Below are positions 7,977-47,432 of a stretch of DNA of 64,000 nt, piece after piece; position 1 is the stretch's first letter; each line of letters begins with the position of its first letter. A program made the position numbers and the translations under genes. The notes beneath the pieces were generated by a model, which was not told the origin of the DNA, made no database searches, and worked only from the letters and a program-made list of their open reading frames with translations. The stretch covers positions 2,728,001 to 2,792,000 of the forward strand of contig NZ_CP094467.1 of assembly GCF_023347235.1 (NCBI RefSeq), written 5' to 3'. The stretch is from Faecalibacterium sp. I4-1-79 (lineage in GTDB: Bacteria; Bacillota; Clostridia; Oscillospirales; Ruminococcaceae).

Positions 7977-8897
7977 ATGAAGATCATGGTTTTTGATGTA
8001 GGCGGCACCGAGATCAAATACTCGGTCATGGACGAGCAGATGCACCGCACGGACAGCGGCGCGGTGCCCACGCCGCAGGATACGCAGGCGCAGTTTCTGG
8101 ATGCAGTCTACCGGCTGTATGCGCCCCATAAGGACGAGGTAACCGGCATTGCCATGGCGCTGCCGGGCTTTGTGGATAACCGCACCGGCTATGTGTCCAA
8201 CGGCGGGGCGCTGCTGTACAACACCGCCACCCCGGTGGGGCAGCTGCTGGCAGAAAAGTGCGGCTGTCCTGTCATACTGGAAAACGACGGCAAGGCCGCC
8301 GCCATGGCAGAGCTGGCAAACGGCGCGCTGAAAGGCTGCTGCAACGCTGCGGTGTTCATCATCGGCACCGGCGTGGGCGGCGGCATTATTGCCAACGGGC
8401 AGCTGGTGCGCGGGGTGCACTTTACCGCCGGGGAGTACAGCTTTGTCAACACCAACGCCGAGGCGTGGGACGCCCCGGACCAGAACATGGCCTGCCAGTG
8501 CAGCACCAGCAACCTGCTTAAATGGTACCGCGCCCGCAAGGCGCTGCCGGAGGACGCCCCGCTGAACGGACGCAGCTTTTTTGCCGCCGCCAACGCCGGA
8601 GAGCCGGAAGCCTTAGAGGTGCTGCGGCGGTTCTGCCACGCGGTGGCGGTGCAGATCTACAACCTGACCGTTCTGCTGGATGTGGAAAAGGTGGCCATCG
8701 GCGGCGGCATCAGCAAGCAGCCCCTGCTGCTGGAAAGCCTGCGCAGCGCCTACGATGGGCTGTACGCCTCCCGGGCGGGACAGGCCTACATGGAGGGCTT
8801 GCCCCGCTGCCAGATCGTGCCCTGCGCCTTCAGCAGTGAGGCCAATCAGGTAGGCGTCGCCGCTGCATATTTTGAAGCTATGCAGAAAAAATGTTGA
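7977..8897 (+). CDS. ROK family sugar kinase/regulator-like protein
   Basis: A 306-residue cytoplasmic ROK protein, probably a glucokinase or N-acetylmannosamine kinase. The phosphate-binding start is VFDVGGTEIKYS, the catalytic Asp lies in ILENDGKAAAMAEL and the family signature is around VFIIGTGVGGGIIANGQLVRG. The usual zinc motif with three cysteines is degenerate (MACQCSTSNLL), keeping only part of the CxCG pattern. There is no N-terminal helix-turn-helix, so it is an enzyme rather than a repressor of the NagC type. It is flanked by its own promoter and a strong terminator and stands as a single-gene unit. Confidence 0.87.
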   Translation: MKIMVFDVGGTEIKYSVMDEQMHRTDSGAVPTPQDTQAQFLDAVYRLYAPHKDEVTGIAMALPGFVDNRTGYVSNGGALLYNTATPVGQLLAEKCGCPVILENDGKAAAMAELANGALKGCCNAAVFIIGTGVGGGIIANGQLVRGVHFTAGEYSFVNTNAEAWDAPDQNMACQCSTSNLLKWYRARKALPEDAPLNGRSFFAAANAGEPEALEVLRRFCHAVAVQIYNLTVLLDVEKVAIGGGISKQPLLLESLRSAYDGLYASRAGQAYMEGLPRCQIVPCAFSSEANQVGVAAAYFEAMQKKC

Positions 8898-33455: not shown

Positions 33456-34049
33456 TTACGCATTCCTTTGCCCCAGCAGCACCGGCTGCAGCTGCTCGCC
33501 CCGCAAAGCGGCTTCCACGGCGGCGGGCAGCAGGGCAAGGTCCGCCTTCAGGCTCTGGGGCTTGGCAAAGGGGTCGTCCTGCCCGTAGGGCACAAAGTAA
33601 TAGTGCTTGCGCTGGCATAGCCGTGCCATGTTTTCCCCGGAAGCGCCAAGGCCGTCGTTGGTGGAAACTGCCAGCACCACCGGGCTGCCCACCCGCAGCA
33701 GGCTTTTGGCAGCAAGGGTCACCGGCGTATCCGAAAGCCCCGCCGCCAGCCGCGCCAGCGTTGCGCCGGTGCAGGGGGCGACCACCAGCGCCTGCGCCAG
33801 CCGCCGGGGGCCCAGCGGCTCCACCGCCTGCAAGGTGTCCAGCACCGGTTGCCCGGTAACGGCCTGCAACCGCTGCCGCCAGCTTTCCCCCGTGCCAAAC
33901 CGGGTATCCAGCTGTGCGGCAAAGCTCATAACGGGCAGCAGCGTCCAGCCCTGTGCCGTCAGCGCCTGCGCCGCGCCCAAGGCATCCTCCAGCGTACAAA
34001 AGCTGCCGCATACCGCAAAGGCAAGACAGCCCTTTTTCTCTGTGGTCAT
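33456..34049 (-). CDS. dpaB: Dipicolinate synthase subunit B (SpoVFB-like flavoprotein)
   Basis: A 197-residue protein of the flavoprotein fold that works with DpaA to oxidise dihydrodipicolinate to dipicolinic acid, the calcium chelator of spore cores. The family pattern is clear: LAFAVCGSFCTLEDAL, VVAPCTGATLARLAAGLSDTPVTLA and STNDGLGASGENMARL, then YYFVPYGQDDPFAKPQS. The ATG at 34049 overlaps the dpaA stop (ATGA), so the two are coupled. In spore formers this pair is expressed in the mother cell. No other sporulation gene was found in the window. Confidence 0.9.
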   Translation of the reverse strand: MTTEKKGCLAFAVCGSFCTLEDALGAAQALTAQGWTLLPVMSFAAQLDTRFGTGESWRQRLQAVTGQPVLDTLQAVEPLGPRRLAQALVVAPCTGATLARLAAGLSDTPVTLAAKSLLRVGSPVVLAVSTNDGLGASGENMARLCQRKHYYFVPYGQDDPFAKPQSLKADLALLPAAVEAALRGEQLQPVLLGQRNA

Positions 34050-34840
34050 ACCTTTCCCTCCCGCTCCTGCAAAATAGTCTGCACCGTGCGTGCCAGCGCC
34101 TCCCCTGCCGTTTCCGGTGCCCAGACTGTCGGCAGGCTCAGCGCGTGCAGTGCCGTGTGCCCCAGCCGCCGGGCGGCAGCAAAGTCTGTGCCGCCGGGCT
34201 TTGAGGCCAGATCCACGATCAGACACCCCTTCGGCAGCGCCGCCAGCACTTGCGCCGTCAGCACCGGCGCGGGGATGGTGTTCACCACCGTATCAAAGGC
34301 GGCAGCTGCTGCGGCAAGCTCTGTCAGCGGCACCGCCCGCAGCCCAAGCTCCTCCGCCATCGCTCGCTGCACCGGGCGGCGTGCCGCCACGGTCACCCGC
34401 GCGCCCAACGCCGCCAGACGCACCGCCAGCGCCCGCCCCACCGGGCCAAAACCCAGCACCAGCACCGCCGCGCCCCACAGGGTACGGCTGCGCCGTTCCA
34501 GCAGAATGCCGATGCAGCCCTCAGCGGTGGGGATGGCGTTATACACGGTCAGCTCCGGGCGGGCAAAGTAGTCCACCAGCTCCACCCCCGCCGCCCGGGC
34601 GATGGTCCTTGCGCTGTCCGTCACCTTACCGCCCAGCGCCAGTGCCCCGGGCTTTGCCGCGCCCAGCAACTGCGCCAGCGGCAGACCGGGCTGTTCCAGC
34701 GGGAGCGGCAGCAGGATGTAGTCTGCCTGCGGCAGCTGCTGCACGCCGCCTACCATATACCCTGCCCGCGCCAGTGCACGCCCTGCCGCCGCCTGCCGGG
34801 CATCACTGCCCACCACCGCAAACCGCTTTGTCTGCTTCAT
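34046..34840 (-). CDS. dpaA: Dipicolinate synthase subunit A (SpoVFA-like)
   Basis: A 264-residue NAD(P)-binding subunit of dipicolinate synthase. The N-terminal part reads RFAVVGSDARQAAAGRALARAGY. The conserved YNAIPTAEGCIGILLER precedes the Rossmann motif VLVLGFGPVGRALAVRLAALGARV, and DLASKPGGTDFAAARRLG follows. It is some 25-30 residues shorter than the Bacillus protein. It is the first gene of dpaAB; an open question is why a probably non-sporulating lineage keeps it. Confidence 0.9.
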   Translation of the reverse strand: MKQTKRFAVVGSDARQAAAGRALARAGYMVGGVQQLPQADYILLPLPLEQPGLPLAQLLGAAKPGALALGGKVTDSARTIARAAGVELVDYFARPELTVYNAIPTAEGCIGILLERRSRTLWGAAVLVLGFGPVGRALAVRLAALGARVTVAARRPVQRAMAEELGLRAVPLTELAAAAAAFDTVVNTIPAPVLTAQVLAALPKGCLIVDLASKPGGTDFAAARRLGHTALHALSLPTVWAPETAGEALARTVQTILQEREGKV

Positions 34841-35977: not shown

Positions 35978-36013
35978 GTCCCCCGGGAAAATCTGCGGAT
36001 TTTCCCGGGGGAC
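35978..36013 (+). repeat. 16-4-16 hairpin family member H6
   Basis: GTCCCCCGGGAAAATC, loop TGCG and the exact complement are followed by TTTTTCACGAGTGGGG. It lies 68 bases after the queH stop in the sense direction. Confidence 0.9.
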
Positions 36014-37605: not shown

Positions 37606-37691
37606 GGTGTTCCTCTCCTTGCGGAAATATCCTTTCTCTATTTAACCATATTTTCGCATCTTTGCAACCGGATTTTCTTACAAAAAGCAGC

Positions 37692-37728
37692 AAAAGGGCT
37701 GCCGCACAAAACGTGCGGCAGCCCTTTT
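37692..37728. terminator. Bidirectional terminator after the condensation-domain gene
   Basis: AAAAGGGCTGCCGCAC, a short loop and GTGCGGCAGCCCTTTT form a strong stem flanked by A and T runs. It ends the biosynthetic operon read from the right. Confidence 0.85.
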
Positions 37729-37748
37729 GCTTTTATAATATGTATTTC

Positions 37749-38957
37749 TCAGTCCAGATCTTCCGCTTCCAGCACCGCAACACCTTCGTTTTCAAAGGTC
37801 TTGCGGAGGATATCGGCCAGACCCGGGTTGGGTGCCTTGTTGTGGATGCACAGGATGATCTTTCCGTTCAGGCTGGCGGCTTCCACACCCACGGATGCGC
37901 CATCCGGCGGCACCCAGACACCAAAATCTGTGGTGTACTGTGCCAGCTCCGGGGTGGCGGGCATCAGCGGGTTGCCCAGATAGCTGAGCCAGAAATCCGA
38001 AATGATGCCGCCAATGTACTCGCCCATCTGGAACACCCGCTGCTTGATGCGCAGGGGGGCTTTTTGCTGGTCCACCTTGTACACCCAGCCCATCTGCTCG
38101 GTCATGCGGCGGCGCTTGGACTGCGGCTGCAGATCCCGCTTGATATCTGCATCGATGTCAGATACAAGATCCGCAAGACGGGTCTTTGCCTGCAGCTGCA
38201 CTGTATGCTCAAAGCTGCATACGCAGTTGTACAGCGCATGCGGCACACCGGCCACATCGCGGGTATCAGAAGAGTAGGAATACTGGATCTTCTCCTTGCC
38301 CAGATACTCCCGCATGGCCATGCACAGCAGACTCATCAGGGCGCTTACCGGCTTTGCGTTGTTTTCCAGTGCTTTTTCCACAAGGCTCTGCTTGCTCAGG
38401 CACACCCGGGTGCGGCGCAGCGCACCCTCGTAGGTCTGCACCACGTCCCGCCGGATGGCATCGCTCCCGCACTCCACGGGTGGATACTCTGCCAGCATGG
38501 CCTGCATATCGTAGGGCGGGTCGCACACGATCTGCTGCACCGCAAAGGATGTGCCGTAACGCAGGTTGCAGTACTGCTCCAGAATGCTGGTGAACAGGGG
38601 CGATACCCCGTGGCCGTCCAGTAGGAAGTGGTGCCAGTCAAAATAAACGGTATCCCCTTCGCAGCTGATGCAGAACAGATAGCCGTTCGTCTGTTCCGGG
38701 ATATTGCGCATGGTGCTGCCGTGGTACACAAGGCAGGGCTCCGTGTTGGGCTCCAGCCACATCTCCCGCTTTTCCTGCACCAGACGCTGGGTATAATAAG
38801 GCGCACTTGCCAAGGCCGCTGTCAGTGCCCGCTGCAAAAGGGCGTTGTCCACCGCATCCCGCAGCGAGAACTGGTACCGGCACTGGACTTTTTCCCGACG
38901 AAAAAAATACATGACACCCTGAAAGTTATATTCCGTCGAGCGCTGTTGTGTTTCCAT
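37749..38957 (-). CDS. Stand-alone condensation-domain acyltransferase (HHxxxDG)
   Basis: A 402-residue protein of the condensation/alcohol-acyltransferase fold, which joins an acyl chain held on a carrier protein to an amine or alcohol. The catalytic motif is WHHFLLDGHG, with HHxxxDG at residues 109-115. The rest fits the two-lobed CoA-acyltransferase fold, ending in DFGVWVPPDGASVGVEAASLNGKIILCIHN, the usual latch strand region. No adenylation or carrier domain is fused. It follows the free carrier protein by six bases and two adenylating enzymes, so it probably performs the release or coupling step of that pathway. The acceptor is unknown. Confidence 0.85.
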   Translation of the reverse strand: METQQRSTEYNFQGVMYFFRREKVQCRYQFSLRDAVDNALLQRALTAALASAPYYTQRLVQEKREMWLEPNTEPCLVYHGSTMRNIPEQTNGYLFCISCEGDTVYFDWHHFLLDGHGVSPLFTSILEQYCNLRYGTSFAVQQIVCDPPYDMQAMLAEYPPVECGSDAIRRDVVQTYEGALRRTRVCLSKQSLVEKALENNAKPVSALMSLLCMAMREYLGKEKIQYSYSSDTRDVAGVPHALYNCVCSFEHTVQLQAKTRLADLVSDIDADIKRDLQPQSKRRRMTEQMGWVYKVDQQKAPLRIKQRVFQMGEYIGGIISDFWLSYLGNPLMPATPELAQYTTDFGVWVPPDGASVGVEAASLNGKIILCIHNKAPNPGLADILRKTFENEGVAVLEAEDLD

Positions 38958-38963
38958 TGGTTT

Positions 38964-39206
38964 TTACCCCACGTTTGCTGCCAGATAATCCACCAGATCA
39001 CCCATGGTGACAAAGTTGCGCAGCTCCTTTTCCGGGATGCGCAGACCAAAGGTCTCCTCAAGATCTGCCACAATGGTCAGGATCTCCATAGAGGACAGAT
39101 CCAGATCGTCCATCAGGACGCTGCTTTCGGTCACATCCTCCGGCGATACCTCTGCGACGTCCTCCAGAATAGCCGTGATCTGAGAAATGATTTCTGCACG
39201 TTCCAT
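38964..39206 (-). CDS. Free acyl carrier protein
   Basis: An 80-residue carrier protein with a four-helix outline. The phosphopantetheine site is the Ser in LDLSSME near residues 36-42 (second Ser by alignment with LGLDSLD of housekeeping ACP). It is very acidic, as carriers are. It is not the fatty-acid ACP by context: it lies between the condensation-domain gene and two adenylating-enzyme genes in one operon. No phosphopantetheinyl transferase is in the window. Confidence 0.9.
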   Translation of the reverse strand: MERAEIISQITAILEDVAEVSPEDVTESSVLMDDLDLSSMEILTIVADLEETFGLRIPEKELRNFVTMGDLVDYLAANVG

Positions 39207-39233
39207 CGTATTATGCTTCCTTTCTGTTGCGTT

Positions 39234-40712
39234 TTACTTGCGCACCAGCTTGCCTGCGCCGTTGCGGGGCAGCGGTGTTTCGCTGAACTCCATCACGCCG
39301 ATGCGCTTGTACAGCGGGACGGTGCGGTTCATCTGGGCAACAAAGTCACGCACGGTCTGCTGGTGCTCCTTTTCACAGTATACCACAACACCTATCTTTT
39401 TGCCCAGTTCTTTTACGATACATTCCTGTACGGCGGGACATTTTTCTACCATGCCCTCCAGCTCCTCGGGGCTGATGTTCTCGCCGCTGTCCAGAATGAT
39501 CAGGTTCTTCTTGCGTCCGGTGATGTAATAGTAACCGTCCTCGTCCACCCGGGCAAGGTCGCCGGTATGTACCCAGCCGTCCTTGTCGATGACCTCTGCG
39601 GTGCCCTCCGGGTCCTTATAGTAGCCCATCATCACGCAGTCGCCGCGCATGCACAGCTCGCCGTCCGGCTCGATCTTGTAGTCCATGTACTCGCTGCCCT
39701 GACCCACGGCACCAATATGCTTTTCGTCCTGTGCAAAGTTGATGATACCCGCGCCGCAGGTCTCGGTAGCGCCGTAGCACTGGATGACGAACATCCCGTT
39801 GTGCACCATATCCAGCAGTACCTGCGGGTCAAACATGGCAGAGGAGCCGATAGGCACCCACAGATCGCCCAGACGGTCGCGGTGGCCGCGCATCACGTCC
39901 TTGTGCAGGGCGTTCATGATCATCGGCACCACAGACATGATCTGGCTGGGCATCTTCTGGATATCGCGGTAGAAGTTGCGGATATCGTTGCCCAGGTTCA
40001 GCGGCCAGCCCATAACGGTGGTGGAGAACAGGTCGATGAAAGCGCCCAGATGGAACATAGGCAGCACCATGTAGTGGCCGGGCAGGGGCTTTGTCAGATC
40101 GATCTTGTCTGCCAGCTGTGCAGAGATGGCCCACAGCACATGACCTGCGCTGAACAGGTTGCGCTCGCTCATCATAACACCCTTGCTCAGGCCGGTGGTG
40201 CCGGAGGTGAACATCAGCACCATCAGGTCATCGTGACCGATGGGGTGCAGCTCGGCTGCCGGCTCATAGCTGCGGAAGCCGTCCATGGGACGCAGCAGGC
40301 TGCCATAGGCGGCTTCCAGCTGTGCCTTGTTGCCGTAGTCCTCGCCGTCGGTCAGGATGGCGGCGGGTTCTACCAGCTCCAGTTCGTAGGACAGCTCCGC
40401 CCAGCTCTTGCGCTGGTTCATCGGCACCAGCACGCAGCCTGCCATGATCGCGCCAAAGGTGTTTACCACATATTCGTAGCTGTTCTTGCTCAGCAGACAG
40501 ATCTTTTTGCCCTTCACATCCGGGATGGTGCTCTGCAGGCAGGTGACCGTCCGGCGGACATCCTGTGCCAGCTCCTTAAAAAGGACGGTGGTCACCGTGT
40601 CGGTCTCCTCGGTGTAGTAACGGAAGGCCACGCGCTCGGGAAATTTCTTTTCCATGCCCTGCGTAATGGCACCGTACATCGTGCTCACGAATTTTTCCAT
40701 TGTAGGCTCCAT
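39234..40712 (-). CDS. Acyl-adenylating enzyme 1 (AMP-dependent synthetase/ligase)
   Basis: A 492-residue ANL-superfamily enzyme that activates a carboxylic acid with ATP and loads it on a thiol, here probably the neighbouring carrier. The P-loop is MFTSGTTGLSKGVMM, then YGATETCGAGI, the hinge HTGDLARVDEDGYYYITGRKKNLI, and the C-terminal catalytic Lys in PLPRNGAGKLVRK. Pairs of motifs fit fatty-acyl or aryl ligases more than amino-acid A domains, but the substrate is not certain. It is clearly a tandem paralogue of the next gene: the last 100 residues are almost the same. Confidence 0.9.
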   Translation of the reverse strand: MEPTMEKFVSTMYGAITQGMEKKFPERVAFRYYTEETDTVTTVLFKELAQDVRRTVTCLQSTIPDVKGKKICLLSKNSYEYVVNTFGAIMAGCVLVPMNQRKSWAELSYELELVEPAAILTDGEDYGNKAQLEAAYGSLLRPMDGFRSYEPAAELHPIGHDDLMVLMFTSGTTGLSKGVMMSERNLFSAGHVLWAISAQLADKIDLTKPLPGHYMVLPMFHLGAFIDLFSTTVMGWPLNLGNDIRNFYRDIQKMPSQIMSVVPMIMNALHKDVMRGHRDRLGDLWVPIGSSAMFDPQVLLDMVHNGMFVIQCYGATETCGAGIINFAQDEKHIGAVGQGSEYMDYKIEPDGELCMRGDCVMMGYYKDPEGTAEVIDKDGWVHTGDLARVDEDGYYYITGRKKNLIILDSGENISPEELEGMVEKCPAVQECIVKELGKKIGVVVYCEKEHQQTVRDFVAQMNRTVPLYKRIGVMEFSETPLPRNGAGKLVRK

Positions 40713-40738
40713 CCTGTTTTGTTCTGTTTGTTTTATCC

Positions 40739-42190
40739 TCAGCGTACCAGCTTGCCCGTGGCATTGCGGGGCAGCGGAGTTTCGCTGAACTCCACCACAC
40801 CGATGCGCTTATACAGCGGCAGGGTACGGTTCATCTCGGTGATATGCTCCTGCACAGTCTGCTGCTTGTCCTGCGGGCAGTACACCACAGCGCCGATCTT
40901 TTTGCCCATTTCCTTCACGACACATTCCTGCACGGCGGGGCATTTTTCCACAAGACCCTCCAACTCCTCGGGGCTGATGTTCTCGCCGCTGTCCAGAATG
41001 ATCAGGTTCTTCTTGCGGCCAGTCAGGTACATATAGCTGTCCTCTTCCAGCCGGGCGATGTCGCCGGTGTGGAACCAGTCGTCCTTGTCGATGACCTCAG
41101 CCGTGGCCTCGGGGTCCTTATAGTAGCCCAGCATGATGGGGGTGCCGCGCATGCACAGCTCGCCATCGTCCAGCTTATACTCGCAGCTGTTGTCCACATG
41201 GCCCACGCTGGTCAGGTGCTTTTCCTCCTGGGAGGAGTTCCAGGCACCATCGCCGCAGGTCTCGGTCATGCCGTACATCTGGGCAATAAAGAAGCCCTTG
41301 TCCATCAGGTCCTTGAGCATCTGGGGGTCGAACATGGCTGCGCCGCAGGTCAGGACGCACAGGCCATTCAGGCGGTCGCGGCGGCCCTTCATCACATCCT
41401 TATACAGGCTCTTCAGCAGCACCGGCACCACAGCCATCACCTCGCTGTGCATCGCGCCGATATCGCGGTAGAAATACTTGAGGTCGTTGCACAGGTTGAT
41501 GCAGTGGCCGGTAATGCTCCAGGATACCAGGCTGGTCATGGCCGAGATGTGGAACATGGGCAGCGCGGACAGTGAGCAGAACTTATCGGTGTCCCAGCCG
41601 GTCGCCTTGCGCACATCATCAAACGGATTCAGGAAGGCGGGCATGGCCGCAAACAGGTTCTTCTGGCTCAGCATAACGCCCTTGCTGCGGCCGGTGGTGC
41701 CGGAGGTAAACATGATAAAGGCCATCGCGGCAAGATCTTCCACTTCCTTTACATCCTGTGCGGGGGCAAAGGCGGTAAAGGCATCCATCGGCTCCAGCTT
41801 TGCACTGTAGGCATCCGCCAGGGCAGGCTCCCACTGCAGATACTCACCGTCCTGCAGCACACAGACCGGCTCCACCAGATCCAGCTCGTACTGGATCTCG
41901 TCCCAGTTCTTGCCCATATTCAGCGGCACTGCCACACCGCCCGCCAGCACAGTGCCGTACATACAGATGACGTAGTGGTAGCTGTTGCGGGCCAGGATCG
42001 CGACCCGCTGCCCCTTGACATCCCCTGCCTTACTGCGCAGGAAGCTGACGAACCTGCGCAGATCCTGAGCATACTGGCGGTAGTACACCTCCGTTACGCC
42101 CCGTTTTGCCTCGTCATAATACCGGATTGCCACGCGGTCCGCATAGATCGTTTCCATATTACAAAGTGACTGATACAGCGATGTGACCAT
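40739..42190 (-). CDS. Acyl-adenylating enzyme 2 (AMP-dependent synthetase/ligase)
   Basis: A 483-residue paralogue of the enzyme downstream, with P-loop MFTSGTTGRSKGVMLSQ, YGMTETCGDGAW, the hinge HTGDIARLEEDSYMYLTGRKKNLI and catalytic Lys in PLPRNATGKLVR. Differences concentrate in the middle, substrate-binding part, so the two probably activate different acids. The ATG at 42190 has GGGAGGG upstream; the frame is open for 42 more codons, but these overlap the promoter at 42274-42302. It is the first gene of the operon. Confidence 0.9.
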   Translation of the reverse strand: MVTSLYQSLCNMETIYADRVAIRYYDEAKRGVTEVYYRQYAQDLRRFVSFLRSKAGDVKGQRVAILARNSYHYVICMYGTVLAGGVAVPLNMGKNWDEIQYELDLVEPVCVLQDGEYLQWEPALADAYSAKLEPMDAFTAFAPAQDVKEVEDLAAMAFIMFTSGTTGRSKGVMLSQKNLFAAMPAFLNPFDDVRKATGWDTDKFCSLSALPMFHISAMTSLVSWSITGHCINLCNDLKYFYRDIGAMHSEVMAVVPVLLKSLYKDVMKGRRDRLNGLCVLTCGAAMFDPQMLKDLMDKGFFIAQMYGMTETCGDGAWNSSQEEKHLTSVGHVDNSCEYKLDDGELCMRGTPIMLGYYKDPEATAEVIDKDDWFHTGDIARLEEDSYMYLTGRKKNLIILDSGENISPEELEGLVEKCPAVQECVVKEMGKKIGAVVYCPQDKQQTVQEHITEMNRTLPLYKRIGVVEFSETPLPRNATGKLVR

Positions 42191-42273
42191 AATTTTACCC
42201 TCCCGAAGCATTTTGTCCTGCCCAGTGTCCGGCTCCGTCCTTCGGGGCGCAGCCCGGGCGCTCAACTGTGCCC

Positions 42274-42302
42274 AGTATACAATATCTTCCAGTGCAATGC
42301 AA
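42274..42302 (-). promoter_or_regulatory. Promoter of the adenylation/carrier/condensation operon
   Basis: On the minus strand TTGCAT (42297-42302), 17 bases and TATACT (42274-42279), 84 bases before the start codon. Confidence 0.8.
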
Positions 42303-42463
42303 TACTTCTGCAACATTTAATTTCCAGCATTGACAATTTTTACTTGCATATCTTTTGGTGCGGTTCGGCCAAATTCTACCTTTCGTTGCAATCTGTCCGT
42401 TCCTGTGCTACAATTTTTAGCGCAAAATACCAGTTCCGGTATGATGCGGACTGCAAAACAAAA

Positions 42464-42492
42464 TTGACAGTCTCTATAAAAAGCATTATACT
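42464..42492 (+). promoter_or_regulatory. Promoter of the membrane acyltransferase gene
   Basis: TTGACA (42464-42469), exactly 17 bases and TATACT (42487-42492). A leader of about 95 bases precedes the ATG at 42593. The remainder of 42191-42592 is AT-rich and holds only the two divergent promoters. Confidence 0.88.
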
Positions 42493-42592
42493 AGCCATAT
42501 ATCATGACAATGCTGTATAAAAATCGATCGTTTGCGCCGTATCCGGCTTTTTTCTTGAGGGGTATTGGTCCGGCGCAGGGAAGGAATCTTTC

Positions 42593-43708
42593 ATGGAAAC
42601 AACCAAGCCCCGCACTGTCAGCTCCATCGGGATGTTTGATATGCTCAAGGGCGCAGGGATGCTGGCCATCGTGCTGGGGCACACTGCGGAGCTTTATCCG
42701 CTTCAGTTGTCGAACGGCCTGTCGCTGACCGCCTTTTTGGTCTTTGTCTACCGCGAAACGCTGATGGCGGCCTTTTTCATCGCCAGCGGCTACGGCTTCC
42801 GCAAGCGCTCCATCGGCAAGTGCATCCACCAGCAGCTCAAAAGCCTGCTCAAGCCCTTTTGCTACACCGCGTTCTTCACCACGGTGCTGCATTTTATCAT
42901 TCATTATAAGACTTTTCACTACCTGCCCGGCTCCCTGAGCGAGAGCATCAAGGTGGCGGGCGGTTTTCTGCTGGGTCTGCCCCATACGGCTACCTACTTC
43001 GGGCAGGAGTTCTTTTCCTGCGGGCCCATGTGGTATCTGCTGGCGCTGCTGATGGGCTGGATCGCGCTGGACGTTATCCTGAACATCTTTCCGGAGCGGT
43101 ACATCCCGTGGGCGGTGGGCGGCTGCGCCCTGCTGGGCTGGGGTGCCAGCCTTGTATGGGAGCTGCCCTTCTGCCTGATTCAAGGCGCGGTGATCACGCC
43201 GTACCTGTACCTTGGTTACCTTGCCAAGCGTCAGCACTGGCTGGATCAGCCCTTGTCCCGCCGGATGTCCTGCATCCTGTGGGCTGCCGTTCTGCTGGTC
43301 CCGGTGGCTGCCTTTGCCACCGGCATCACCGACTGTGTATCCATGGCAGAGTGGACCTTAGGCCCCATCAGCATCCTGCTGGACGGCCTTGCCGGCCTGC
43401 TGTTCGTCCGGCTGTTTTTGCGGCTGAACCGGCACCGGAATGCGCTGGTAAGCTTTTTTGAGGCCATTGGCCGCCGCTCCCTGTACATCTTCTGCATACA
43501 TACCGTAGAGCTTACCGCTATTCCGTGGTATCTGTTCGCGGCGAAATACGCCGACCGCCCTGTTTTGGGCATCTGCCTGCAATATGTCCTTTCGCTGGGC
43601 TCCATCTGGCTTGTCTGTGCCCTGCTGCAACGGCGGCGGGATCTGGTCATCAAGCTGTTCCCCGCCCGGCGGCACACCCCGCAGGTACACTACACCCCAC
43701 GGCACTGA
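42593..43708 (+). CDS. Acyltransferase family 3 membrane protein
   Basis: A 371-residue integral membrane protein with about ten helices, of the family that acetylates or acylates surface glycans and lipids. The start region FDMLKGAGMLAIVLGHTAELYP has the usual catalytic His near residue 28, and MAAFFIASGYGFRKR is the conserved Ser/Gly-Tyr-Phe loop. The C-terminal IGRRSLYIFCIHTVELT is also typical. It is divergent from the adenylation operon with a perfect sigma-A promoter and leads toward a glycosyltransferase pair, so it could act on the glycan or on the carrier product. Confidence 0.86.
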   Translation: METTKPRTVSSIGMFDMLKGAGMLAIVLGHTAELYPLQLSNGLSLTAFLVFVYRETLMAAFFIASGYGFRKRSIGKCIHQQLKSLLKPFCYTAFFTTVLHFIIHYKTFHYLPGSLSESIKVAGGFLLGLPHTATYFGQEFFSCGPMWYLLALLMGWIALDVILNIFPERYIPWAVGGCALLGWGASLVWELPFCLIQGAVITPYLYLGYLAKRQHWLDQPLSRRMSCILWAAVLLVPVAAFATGITDCVSMAEWTLGPISILLDGLAGLLFVRLFLRLNRHRNALVSFFEAIGRRSLYIFCIHTVELTAIPWYLFAAKYADRPVLGICLQYVLSLGSIWLVCALLQRRRDLVIKLFPARRHTPQVHYTPRH

Positions 43709-43773: not shown

Positions 43774-44568
43774 ATGAACCACGATGCCCCCGTGACCCCT
43801 GCTGCCCTGCAGGCGCACATTGCCGAGCTGGAGCAGCAGCTCAAGCTTTCGGACGAGGGTGTTTCCCAGCTGGCGCAGCGGTGTCTGGAGCTGGAGCAGC
43901 AGCTGCTGACCTGCCAGACCGAGCTTTCCAGGCACAGCGCCGAGGCCGAAAACATCACTCTTACCCTGCCGCAGCTGTTCTACGACACCGGCAGCGGCTT
44001 TTCGCCCCGGGAATGCCTGATTGCCACCGAGGATGTCTACAACGAGCTGACCCATGAGGTGTCGGTCACCTTTATTCTGCCGGAGGACGCCCGCGCCGTC
44101 CGGCTGGACCCTGGCGAACTGGCCTGCTGCATCACTGACCTTGCCATTTCGGACGAACGCATCAGCTTTCAGCCGGTCAACGGCCTTGTATTGCAGGAGG
44201 ACAGCCTGCTGTTCTTAGATGTAGACCCCAACCTTGCACTGCACTGCACCACCGGCTTTGGTGCCGGCATGAAGTTTGCGGTGAACTATCACTACTACCC
44301 GCTGGGACGTTTTCTGCACGAGCAGCCCGGCAAATCTCTGCTGCGGGCGCTGAACGACCTGAAGCTGAAAAACGCCACCGCCGCGCAGGAAGCAGCCGAG
44401 GTATTGCAGGCCAGCCGCGCCGAGTGTATGCGGCTGAACCAGCAGCTGCTGACCCTGCAGGGCATCCAGCACGAATATCAGGTCTCGCTGGAAAATATGC
44501 GCGCCAGCAGCAGCTGGCGGCTGACCGCCCCGCTGCGCAAGCTGCTGACCCTGCTGCGCGGCCACTGA
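43774..44568 (+). CDS. Coiled-coil protein of the glycosyltransferase group
   Basis: A 264-residue protein of unknown function. Residues 10-55 and 190-240 are Leu/Glu/Gln heptad-rich (IAELEQQLKLSDEGVSQLAQRC and EVLQASRAECMRLNQQLLTLQ), flanking a beta-type central domain (FILPEDARAVRLDPGELACC). The end, SSSWRLTAPLRKLLTLLRG, is a tail often found on proteins encoded with surface-glycan glycosyltransferases and may contact the membrane. GGAGGA precedes the ATG. The next gene, a GT4 enzyme, starts 34 bases later. Confidence 0.75.
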   Translation: MNHDAPVTPAALQAHIAELEQQLKLSDEGVSQLAQRCLELEQQLLTCQTELSRHSAEAENITLTLPQLFYDTGSGFSPRECLIATEDVYNELTHEVSVTFILPEDARAVRLDPGELACCITDLAISDERISFQPVNGLVLQEDSLLFLDVDPNLALHCTTGFGAGMKFAVNYHYYPLGRFLHEQPGKSLLRALNDLKLKNATAAQEAAEVLQASRAECMRLNQQLLTLQGIQHEYQVSLENMRASSSWRLTAPLRKLLTLLRGH

Positions 44569-44602: not shown

Positions 44603-46207
44603 ATGTACACCAGTTACAGTACCCTGCAGCGCAAGCAATTGTCCAAGCAGGTCTATACCGATACCCAGAGCACCTATCTTCTGGTCTACGCGCCGGGGCG
44701 TCACAAGGCGCTGGAAACGGCGCTGCAAAACCAGCTGCACCGCAAGTTCCGTCTGGTGACCCGGCTGGAGGGCGAGCTGACCCCCGCTGTGGCCGGGGTG
44801 CTGCTGGTAAGCGAGGATGTGGAGTGCACCCCCACCGCCCTGACCTATTTTGCCGCCGCCCTGCGGGAGGGCGCAGACCTTGCGGTCTGCGACGCCGCCT
44901 TTGGCTTTGACGGCGCTACCGCCCTGTACCTGAGCACTCAGCACCTGCCGGGCAGCCGCTGCGCCATGGTGTCCCGCGCATTGCTGGACGAGGTACGCGC
45001 CGCCGCCCGGGGCAGGGACAGCGTTACCGAGCTGCTGCGTCTGGCCCATGCCATGGCGCAGCACAGCTGCCGCATCCCGCAGGCACTGCTGCACTTCCGC
45101 CGGGAGCTGTGCGCCGACGACGTGTTCTCCGCCAAGGGACGCCGTGCGCTGATCCTGAGCCACGAGCTGACCATGACCGGCGCGCCCATCGTGCTGGTAA
45201 GCGCCGTGCCGGTGCTGCGCAACCTTGGCTTTGAGGTGGTGGTGCTGGGGCCGGCGGACGAAGGCTCGCTGCCGCTGTTTCTGGATGCCGGGGCCGCTGT
45301 GGTCACCCGCCCGGACTGCGTTACTTCCAGCGCCCTGTGGGGGCTGGCCACCAGCGCAGACCTTGTGCTGGCCAACACAGTGGTGGAAGCGCCGGTGGTA
45401 AACACCCTGAACGGCTCCTTTGTGCCAGTGCTGTGGTGGCTGCACGATGCCTTTGCGGGCTACCCCTTCATCTCTCACAGCATCCCAAAGGCGCTGGGCA
45501 AAAATATCCACGTCTGCGCCGTAGGCTCCCACGCCACCGCCGCCATGCACTCCGTCCGACCGGATTTTGAAATCGAGCAGCTGATCTACGGTCTGCCGGA
45601 CTACGCCGCCGAGCAGTTTCCTCGCTATGACATCAGCTTTGCCGGAGGGCGTCCCCTCTTTGTAACGGTAGGCTCGCTGGAGCACCGCAAGGGTCCGGAT
45701 ATCTTCTGCAATGCCATCCGGCTGCTGCCCTCTGCGGTGCGGGAAAAAGCCGTTTTCCTCTTTGTGGGCAAAGCCGCCGACAAGGGAATGTACAACGCCG
45801 TGGACAGTCTGGTGCGGGACTATCCCCAGACCGTTTTCTACCGCAAGCGGCTGGAGCGCCCGGAGGTCAAATCCCTGATGGAGCAGTGCAACTGCGTGGT
45901 GTGTGCCTCTCGCGACGACCCCATGCCCACCTTCGTCACCGAGGGTCTGATCTTCGGCAAGCCCTCTATCGTATCGGAGCACACCGGCACCGCCGGGCTT
46001 GTGACCGAAGGCGTGGACGGTTTCCTCTACAAGGACGACGACCCGCAGCAGCTGGCCGATAAGCTGACTTGGGCCATTGAGCACCCGGAAGCGCTGGCCG
46101 CCATGCACGACAGCTGCCGCCGCCTGTACGAGCAGCAGTTCTCCAACGAATCCTATGTAGCCACCCTGACAAGGCTGGTAAAAGAGCTGACGGACGGGGA
46201 AGAATAA
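44603..46207 (+). CDS. GT4 family glycosyltransferase with N-terminal extension
   Basis: A 534-residue enzyme. The last 360 residues are a GT-B glycosyltransferase: ILSHELTMTGAPIVLVSAVPVLRNLGFEV opens the acceptor lobe, and FVTVGSLEHRKGPDIFCNAI with CVVCASRDDPMPTFVTEGLIFGKPSIVS (the E-x7-E region) forms the donor lobe. The first 170 residues are an extra domain resembling a GT-A-like fold without a clear metal motif (VAGVLLVSEDVECTPTALTY). Ribosome site GGAGGAG. Sugar specificity unknown. Confidence 0.87.
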   Translation: MYTSYSTLQRKQLSKQVYTDTQSTYLLVYAPGRHKALETALQNQLHRKFRLVTRLEGELTPAVAGVLLVSEDVECTPTALTYFAAALREGADLAVCDAAFGFDGATALYLSTQHLPGSRCAMVSRALLDEVRAAARGRDSVTELLRLAHAMAQHSCRIPQALLHFRRELCADDVFSAKGRRALILSHELTMTGAPIVLVSAVPVLRNLGFEVVVLGPADEGSLPLFLDAGAAVVTRPDCVTSSALWGLATSADLVLANTVVEAPVVNTLNGSFVPVLWWLHDAFAGYPFISHSIPKALGKNIHVCAVGSHATAAMHSVRPDFEIEQLIYGLPDYAAEQFPRYDISFAGGRPLFVTVGSLEHRKGPDIFCNAIRLLPSAVREKAVFLFVGKAADKGMYNAVDSLVRDYPQTVFYRKRLERPEVKSLMEQCNCVVCASRDDPMPTFVTEGLIFGKPSIVSEHTGTAGLVTEGVDGFLYKDDDPQQLADKLTWAIEHPEALAAMHDSCRRLYEQQFSNESYVATLTRLVKELTDGEE

Positions 46208-46216
46208 CGAAAAAAC

Positions 46217-46254
46217 AATGCCGGACAGCTGCACGCTGCCCGGCATTGCTTTTT
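46217..46254 (+). terminator. Terminator after the GT4 gene
   Basis: AATGCCGGACAGC and GCTGCCCGGCATT (one mismatch) followed by GCTTTTTCAC. It shares the TTTTTCAC tail with the dispersed hairpin family but has 13-base arms. Confidence 0.8.
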
Positions 46255-46394
46255 CACAATCTTTGCATTTTATCAAATCCCCCAAATTGCAAAACAAAGT
46301 TCCGCTTCCGTTCACAAAGGGCGGCGGGAGATGTGCTATACTGGTCACAGAATTTCCGGTTAAAAGCATCCATACCGAAAGGAGTTTTGTTTCC

Positions 46395-47432
46395 ATGAGC
46401 CAAGCCGCCGCGCAGCAGCCCTCCCGCAAAAAGACTGTGATCTCTCTGCTGGTGCTGCTGGCACTTACCTGCATCATCGTGTTCATTTTTAAGGATCACT
46501 GGGTCGAGATCACCACGGCGCTGGCGCAGCTGTCGGTGTGGCAGGTGCTGGCGGTTCTGGCGGTCGGCATCAGCTACCCCCTGCTGGAAGGGTGCGTGGC
46601 GTGGGTCATCGTGCGCAGCCGTCTGCCGCAGTTCAAGCTGTGGCAAGGGTTAGATGTGGGCTGGTGCGGCACCTTTGGCAACGTGGTCACGCTGGGTGCC
46701 GGTGCGGTACCGGTGCAGCTGTACTACCTGCACAAGGCCGGGCTGTCACTGGGTCCCGGCGCAGGGCTGATGACGCTGGAATACGTTTTCCATAAGACCA
46801 CCGTGCTGCTGTACGCCACCGTGATGCTGCTGTTACAGCATCGCTGGCTTTCCGCCAACACCACCGGTGTCATGCGCTATCTGCCCATGGCATACGCTGT
46901 GGTAGCGGTGATTATTGTGGCGCTGGTGCTGCTGTGTGTTTCGCCGCTGGTGCAGAGCCTCGCCCGCTGGCTGCTGGGCTTTCTGCCCAAGACCGAAAAG
47001 TGGCAGCAGCGCCGCGCCGACTGGCTGGAACAGCTGGAGGTGCTGGGCACCGAGAGCCGCCGCCTGCTGGCAGATAAGCCCCGCTGCCTGAAGATTTTTG
47101 CCCTGCAGGCGCTCAAGCTGTTCGGGCTGTTCTGCCTGCCCTACCTGTGCATCCGTTTCATGGGGCTTTCCCCGCTGGGCTTCTGGCAAGTGCAGCTGCT
47201 CACCAGCCTGATGCTCTTCGTCTCCAACGCCCTGCCCAATGTAGCCGGGATGGGCTCGATCGAAACCGCCTTTCTGCTGGTGTTCGGCAGCTTTCTGGAG
47301 CAGGGCGAGGCGATGAGCGTGCTGATGCTCTACCGCATCGCCAGCTATTATGTAGTATTTGCCGCCAGTGCCGTGGGCTTCTTCATCGCCCAGCGGCATC
47401 TTGTCCAAATGGAGCCGCCAAAGGAGGGGTGA
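46395..47432 (+). CDS. Lysylphosphatidylglycerol synthase TM / UPF0104 family membrane protein
   Basis: A 345-residue protein with about eight helices matching the flippase-like half of MprF without the catalytic aminoacyl-transferase half. Visible family features are YPLLEGCVAWVIVRSRL, GWCGTFGNVVTLGAGAVPVQLYYLHKAG and LPNVAGMGSIETAFLLVFGSF. The ATG at 46395 with AAAGGAG upstream is preferred to a frame extension of 59 codons through the terminator. Relatives occur beside glycosyltransferases and may move lipid-linked sugars. The gene after it starts four bases past its stop. Confidence 0.88.
   Translation: MSQAAAQQPSRKKTVISLLVLLALTCIIVFIFKDHWVEITTALAQLSVWQVLAVLAVGISYPLLEGCVAWVIVRSRLPQFKLWQGLDVGWCGTFGNVVTLGAGAVPVQLYYLHKAGLSLGPGAGLMTLEYVFHKTTVLLYATVMLLLQHRWLSANTTGVMRYLPMAYAVVAVIIVALVLLCVSPLVQSLARWLLGFLPKTEKWQQRRADWLEQLEVLGTESRRLLADKPRCLKIFALQALKLFGLFCLPYLCIRFMGLSPLGFWQVQLLTSLMLFVSNALPNVAGMGSIETAFLLVFGSFLEQGEAMSVLMLYRIASYYVVFAASAVGFFIAQRHLVQMEPPKEG

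Follow-up and report, generated by a model that had tools for sequence, protein, structure and literature searches.

A Faecalibacterium gene island of free-standing ligases, carrier and CAT-fold transferase as a candidate acyl-transfer pathway

Genes and promoters of the island

A stretch of 64,000 nucleotides from Faecalibacterium sp. I4-1-79 (contig NZ_CP094467.1, positions 2,728,001 to 2,792,000; hereafter the window, whose numbering is used throughout), part of a genome assembled as a single contig of 3.23 Mb, carries a compact operon for two acyl-adenylating ligases (A1 and A2), a free acyl carrier protein (ACP) and a stand-alone CAT-fold transferase (C), from which a second operon, headed by the membrane acyltransferase gene AT3, diverges. 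The A/ACP/C and AT3 island has been found so far in Faecalibacterium alone, where it forms a conserved block in 26 of the 31 genus genomes searched. We propose, with a probability of about 0.52, that it gives the genus an ACP-dependent route of acyl transfer, leading to a small N- or O-acylated metabolite. Free A/ACP/C pathways are known as the fatty acid amide (FAA) pathways of gut Clostridia; judged by profile comparison, the Faecalibacterium transferase is from another CAT-fold branch than theirs.

Read along the minus strand, the operon consists of A1 (40739..42190, 483 residues), A2 (39234..40712, 492 residues), ACP (38964..39206, 80 residues, with the phosphopantetheine Ser39, placed by alignment, encoded at 39090-39092) and C (37749..38957, a condensation-like protein of 402 residues with the motif HHFLLDG), separated by 26, 27 and 6 bases. 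It ends at a strong intrinsic terminator hairpin (37689..37731, assigned to neither strand) with a stem of 19-20 pairs and T runs on both strands, in agreement with the bidirectional terminator described in an earlier reading of the sequence alone (the sequence-only reading). A1 probably starts at 42190 rather than at 42316, to which the mechanical open reading frame extends, because the shorter form aligns with A2 and other relatives and because the -10 element falls within the longer frame. This element belongs to the probable operon promoter, TTGCAT-17-TATACT (42274..42302, minus strand), which was read by eye. It had been called a consensus promoter; its -35 is weak, and the promoter scan did not return it. 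The -10 core (AGTATAC on the opposite strand) is kept in 13 of the 15 loci, out of 26, that were included in the spacer and promoter alignment.

AT3 (42593..43708, plus strand) encodes an integral-membrane protein of 371 residues with a match to PF01757 (E 5e-19) that, at 68.9 bits, exceeds the curated cut-off of 31, and lies head-to-head with the A operon. The sequence-only reading had recognized this acyltransferase gene and ended there. AT3 heads a row of four genes in one direction. It is followed on the plus strand by genes for a 264-residue protein that matches no Pfam or NCBIfam model (43774..44568), a GT4-family glycosyltransferase (44603..46207) and a flippase-like membrane protein of the LPG_synthase_TM family (46218..47432), with gaps of 65, 34 and 10 bases. 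The last of these adjoins the glycosyltransferase gene in 17 of the 25 fetched loci. At one locus (L030), where C is 95% identical to that of the window, a local rearrangement has put the flippase-like gene downstream of C and not beside the glycosyltransferase gene.

The promoter scan placed the AT3 promoter, TTGACAG-N8-AAAAGCATTATACT, at 42464..42492 on the plus strand, and its conservation across the genus is strong. Described as perfect before, it matches the consensus at 11 of 12 positions. In the form ATTGACAG-N7-AAAAAGCATTATACT it has 23 positions that are invariant in all 26 loci, next to spacer bases that can hardly be aligned. Eleven of these 23 bases lie outside the hexamers, which suggests an overlapping protein-binding site, a putative operator, in a comparison confined to the AT3 promoter. 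When the single base at which one further genome (G016) differs is relaxed, the pattern occurs exactly in 27 of the 31 genus genomes, and these are exactly the genomes with AT3; the four genus genomes lacking AT3 contain no copy at up to two mismatches. As the pattern was derived from these loci, its exact matches there are given by construction, while its rarity elsewhere is not. Five genus genomes hold one extra copy elsewhere with two mismatches, and the window genome has a single exact copy, besides two that deviate at three positions. The promoter scan also returned TTGCAA-17-TACAAT (42386..42414, plus strand), which may be a second promoter of the AT3 operon and is partly conserved in the alignment.

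Values of dN/dS between 0.00 and 0.39 were obtained when A1, A2, ACP, C and AT3 were compared with their counterparts in four related species (17 comparisons, some genes being covered in part of the species), and point to five real genes on which purifying selection acts.

Ligases and carrier

A1 and A2 are identical at 258 of 486 aligned columns (53%) and match PF00501 with E values of 1e-43 and 2e-51, so the description of two paralogous acyl-adenylating enzymes holds. By their motifs, both are ligases of the acyl/aryl-acid type: all 14 aligned genus ligases have the signature LPMFH, which contains no Asp, together with PLPR(N/T)xxGKLxR and its catalytic Lys. An Asp in the SFD motif is a mark of amino-acid activation. 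Where the 14 genus ligases and the FAA ligases have His, this Asp is seen in four other ligases, including one of the window's own genome. The window genome encodes four AMP-binding proteins in total, two of them in the island.

Relatives of the ligases were found in 17 of 291 genomes of the class at E ≤ 1e-60, the window genome included, and 15 of the 16 outside loci were fetched (the match in genome G295 was left unfetched). Thirteen of the 15 are trios in which the ligase gene follows genes for a protein of 461-500 residues and a small ACP (order C/ACP/A); the other two are an NRPS-like (nonribosomal peptide synthetase-like) fusion (L133) and a ligase with an adjoining ACP and no C (L140). 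We call the 13 trios FAA-type because a profile of their C proteins (12 of 13) matches PDB entry 12KH with 601 bits and this entry is the structure of OaaC (PMC13142362). That paper treats free A/ACP/C trios in gut Clostridia as FAA pathways, with OaaA, OaaACP and OaaC of Coprococcus eutactus as an example.

Sequence identity between A1 or A2 and 12 of the trio ligases is 27-32%. A1 scores 171-236 bits with the trio ligases and at most 137 bits with 13 other ligases; for A2 the values are 139-216 and at most 143, so that one trio ligase falls just below the top other ligase. A tree was built from 14 genus A frames (of 39), 12 trio ligases (of 13) and 13 others (one a fragment). In it the FAA ligases group together, with the NRPS-like L133 among them (99/99), the genus ligases make up a second group (78/100), and a branch supported at 99/98 separates 12 of the 13 other ligases from both. 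Several branches are long and the program warned of possibly false joins. The alignment also shows that the FAA-ligase motifs LPI(H/N)H and A10 FxK....KIxR are missing from the genus ligases. By tree and motifs, the genus ligases stand beside, not within, the FAA ligase group and are a sister group at best.

Within the genus, 15 of the 26 loci (window included) have two full A genes, nine have one, one has a shortened chimeric A gene (L041) and one has none (L038). Where two are present, they can be far more alike at the C-terminus than in the core: over the last 94 residues and the core, respectively, A1 and A2 are 81% and 46% identical in the window, 80% and 45% in L030, 96% and 49% in L036, and 94% and 44% in L044, and between-genome pairs of equal core identity have a mean of 66-67% over the same 94 residues. 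This pattern in four pairs is as expected if both ligases serve one ACP, and may reflect occasional gene conversion of the carrier-facing subdomain, which is compatible with the use of one ACP by both. Two loci, each of a different species (L037:13182-14264 and L041:5950-6801), hold an extra, distant AMP-binding gene on the opposite strand downstream of C, whose product is 27-28% identical to A2.

The free 80-residue carrier with a phosphopantetheine Ser is borne out by a match to PF00550 (E 1e-9) and by the motif DDLDLSSME, which is present at 26 of 26 genus loci. Its gene lies immediately upstream of C at all 26, the window included. The window genome encodes three PP-binding proteins, one of them in the island.

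The transferase C and its distribution

C matches the Pfam condensation model PF00668 with an E value of 9e-4 and 18.4 bits, below the curated cut-off of 30.6, and was not accepted as a condensation domain on that basis; searches that use this model would therefore be likely to miss it. The trio C proteins match the same model with E values of 6e-29 to 1e-40 (seven of seven scanned, out of 13). The intact HHxxxDG motif of a free condensation protein, as first reported, is found in the window itself (HHFLLDG). Across the genus, the motif is xHxxxDGxG in all 26 proteins, with the first His in four and F, Y or D in 11, 10 and one, respectively. In 16 aligned genus proteins, His110, Asp114 and Gly115 are invariant. 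Of the 13 trio proteins, 12 have (D/H)HxxxD(S/A) and one (L139) has YHxxxDA; the window sequence fits the FAA motif (D/H)HxxxD(S/A/G), and the genus as a whole is xHxxxDG with F, Y, H or D at the first position, in a motif too short to discriminate.

The AlphaFold model of C (pLDDT 87.5) has a CAT fold, and a Foldseek search with it found NRPS condensation domains as best matches (E 2e-18, TM score about 0.5), with further matches to PapA5 (TM score 0.63) and AzeD (TM score 0.70). As modelled, C is a member of the CAT-fold acyltransferase superfamily, with both the fold and the xHxxxDG active site present. Among PDB sequences, the C profile found a single, unrelated match (E 0.18) and the window C sequence found McyA alone (E 0.92).

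The affinities of C were assessed by comparing three sets of proteins. A search of 391 genomes of the class with the C profile gave matches at E ≤ 1e-6 in 57, the window genome included, and the stand-alone group, A5, was collected with this profile from the same genomes, which could also yield FAA C proteins. At 20 loci followed up from among the best matches, no A or ACP relative was found in stretches of 8-13 kb. The genus C profile gives nine stand-alone CAT-fold proteins 61-96 bits and twelve FAA C proteins 1.7-11.5 bits; the A5 profile gives genus C proteins 110-155 bits and FAA C proteins 4-13 bits; and with the FAA C profile all 26 genus C proteins score 3-17 bits. In hhalign, genus C aligns with A5 over 377 columns (E 2e-40) and, weakly and in part, with FAA C over 111 columns (probability 84%, E 8e-6), and FAA C aligns with the stand-alone group over 245 columns (probability 93.5%). 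These scores place C in a CAT-fold branch other than the FAA clade.

C was found in 26 of the 31 genus genomes by whole-genome search, and outside the genus three of 30 genomes had matches, all weak. When named genomes were scanned with the C alignment, in a search that detects rather close relatives only and may leave out records near the window genome, 19 loci came up, all from Faecalibacterium, including F. prausnitzii, F. longum, F. gallinarum and chicken metagenome bins. AT3 diverges from the A/ACP/C operon at all 25 fetched genus loci. Four genus genomes (G009, G018, G019 and G027) lack both C and AT3 and have weak or no matches to the A proteins and the glycosyltransferase, with G018 and G019 being 89% and 79% complete. 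The fifth genome without C, G016, is 99% complete and keeps AT3, A, ACP and the glycosyltransferase, as well as the AT3 promoter pattern with one base changed; at its locus (L155) there is no C-like frame in the expected place, left of position 8074, and the genome has no C match.

Elsewhere in the window, a 16-pair hairpin with a T run lies 3' of a QueH gene (35978-36013). Two adjacent frames on the minus strand (33456-34840) may encode dipicolinate synthase subunits, a spore function, as judged by resemblance. Faecalibacterium is regarded as a non-sporing genus.

Proposed pathway, alternatives and known systems

A minimal stand-alone line of activation, carrier and transfer, with a small acylated product, had been proposed from the sequence alone, and the gene anatomy fits it. 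In the pathway that we favour, A1 and A2 would each adenylate a free carboxylic acid, probably fatty or aryl-alkyl, and both would load the acyl group onto the thiol of the single dedicated ACP. C would then take the acyl group from ACP and, with His110 as base, pass it on to a small amine or alcohol in free form, so that a small N- or O-acylated metabolite would be released; the AT3 and glycosyltransferase operon may finish or export the product. The acceptor may be a small amine (as in FAA pathways), an alcohol (as for PapA5) or a sugar of the neighbouring operon. The family of each component, the active-site residues, the genus-wide linkage and the purifying selection are the parts of the scheme read from sequence. 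Since A1 and A2 differ most in the substrate-holding core, they probably supply two alternative acids. Alternative acyl donors on one carrier fit better than the joining of two acids on it, which had also been suggested and is unlikely: the ligases are of the acyl/aryl type, no nucleophile is provided, and two carboxylic acids need an amine or alcohol for coupling.

Several observations weigh against this pathway. No A gene is present at L038 (a fragment lies on another contig of a genome that is 79% complete) and L041 has a shortened one only, and the absence of C from G016 means that C is not always kept. ACP cannot be placed nearer the FAA carriers than other carriers, because its profile gives 12 of the 13 trio carriers 31-52 bits and the thirteenth (L137) 16 bits, and the range overlaps with the 27-43 bits of five other carriers from the trio genomes. 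In 11 of the 15 within-genome A1-A2 pairs, there is no C-terminal excess over between-genome pairs, and the homogenization is backed by three lineages only, because the window and L030 are closely related. Finally, the second half of the island resembles a glycan operon, and this favours the main alternative.

In that alternative, the end product would be an acylated glycolipid or surface glycan. The divergent glycosyltransferase would make a sugar or glycolipid, A/ACP/C would supply an acyl chain and put it on, and at the membrane the product would be both acylated and moved by AT3 and the flippase-like protein. Mycobacterial FadD/Pap/glycosyltransferase sets work in a similar manner, and PapA5 comes second among the kinds of protein matched by the C model. 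The two halves are linked: AT3 and the 264-residue gene lie beside A/ACP/C at all 25 fetched loci, and the glycosyltransferase gene at 24, the remaining one being at a contig edge. They are also largely absent together, as four of the five genus genomes without C lack AT3 too and show no glycosyltransferase match or a weak one (E 4e-5 and 8e-4), with G016 as the genome that retains the rest, and of 148 sampled family genomes (123 genera) the window's own was the one with the glycosyltransferase at E ≤ 1e-40. On the other hand, two of the four genomes that miss everything are the incomplete G018 and G019, the halves are separate divergent operons, AT3 and glycosyltransferase genes are commonly paired for surface glycans and may be mere neighbours here, and neither an enzyme for lipid-linked sugars nor an anchor was identified. 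On balance, we regard a glycolipid or glycan as the less likely end product and as the main alternative. The support for AT3 as a part of the pathway is limited to linkage and shared presence.

A true FAA pathway whose C has diverged fast is improbable. The three functions are shared, FAA-type ligases are the nearest outside relatives of A1 and A2, the 99/98 branch sets 12 of the 13 other ligases apart from both groups, and the 111-column alignment gives a trace of likeness between the C proteins. Against it stand the low scores between genus C and FAA C in both directions beside the 377-column alignment with the stand-alone group, a 99/99 FAA ligase group with motifs of its own that excludes the genus ligases, and a reversed gene order. 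There is similarly little to recommend ordinary acyl-CoA ligases beside an ACP and C that serve something else: CoA ligases and luciferases are the nearest structures by sequence and fold (FadD13, MenE, luciferases and feruloyl/coumaroyl-CoA ligases for the A2 model, pLDDT 84.0) and acyl-CoA ligase models are the top NCBIfam matches, yet scores are far under the cut-offs of the 25 best models, an intact A gene shares one operon with ACP and C at 24 of 26 genus loci, and 14 of the 15 nearest outside relatives adjoin an ACP.

Returning to the ACP-dependent acyl-transfer pathway, we tentatively suggest, at somewhat less than even odds, that it is typical of the genus and was assembled separately from FAA pathways, with FAA-like ligases, a carrier, a transferase recruited from another CAT-fold group, ligase cores that vary between species, a coupled AT3 and glycosyltransferase operon under a near-invariant promoter, and an unseen class of acylated metabolite or glycolipid as product. 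Faecalibacterium is among the commonest human gut commensals. If this is true, a so far unseen acylated metabolite or glycolipid class would meet the human host. This conserved relative of the FAA logic provides a concrete four-protein set for a product search. FAA products of other gut Clostridia are active on human G protein-coupled receptors, according to PMC13142362. That paper contains no mention of Faecalibacterium, and in the literature matches listed no title or start of an abstract pointed to this locus, which does not establish its absence from print. According to passages of PMC11169845, which give no gene names, the antiSMASH hits in Faecalibacterium include NRPS-type clusters, and this locus may be among them.

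Among known systems, the D-alanylation (Dlt) system consists of a ligase, a small carrier and a membrane acyltransferase. The island shares this set and differs by its additional CAT-fold enzyme and by the His of its ligases; DltB and DltD had no match among the scanned island genes, and Dlt membership and amino-acid activation were rejected because all 14 aligned genus ligases have His in place of the Asp. In mycobacterial PapA5/FadD sets, a CAT-fold transferase takes carrier-bound acyl groups and adenylating ligases are encoded nearby. The Faecalibacterium locus likewise joins a CAT-fold transferase, with PapA5 as a fold match, to neighbouring adenylating ligases, in contrast lacks a polyketide synthase, and has a C that is 16-17% identical to PapA5 in structural alignment. 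The stand-alone CAT-fold acyltransferases of Clostridia (A5, without a named family) are similar to C over its full length and, unlike C, have no A or ACP relative within 8-13 kb at the 20 loci examined.

FAA pathways share with the island the grouping of free-standing A, ACP and C genes, a CAT-fold transferase with a constant second His and the closest ligases found outside the genus. The Faecalibacterium C is 60-100 residues shorter and from another CAT-fold group, its A proteins lie outside the FAA ligase group, its gene order is A-A-ACP-C instead of C-ACP-A, two A genes are present at 15 of 26 loci, and an AT3 and glycosyltransferase operon is attached, with no such AT3 relative in 15 FAA-like stretches. 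Plain FAA membership was rejected on the C profile scores (1.7-11.5 bits for FAA C). The pathway had not been recognized as a described one; its kind is described, in PMC13142362, as FAA trios, and this assembly differs from them. What is known is thus the free A/ACP/C pathway of the FAA kind, and what is new, as far as profile comparison can place it, is a Faecalibacterium variant with a transferase from a different CAT-fold branch.

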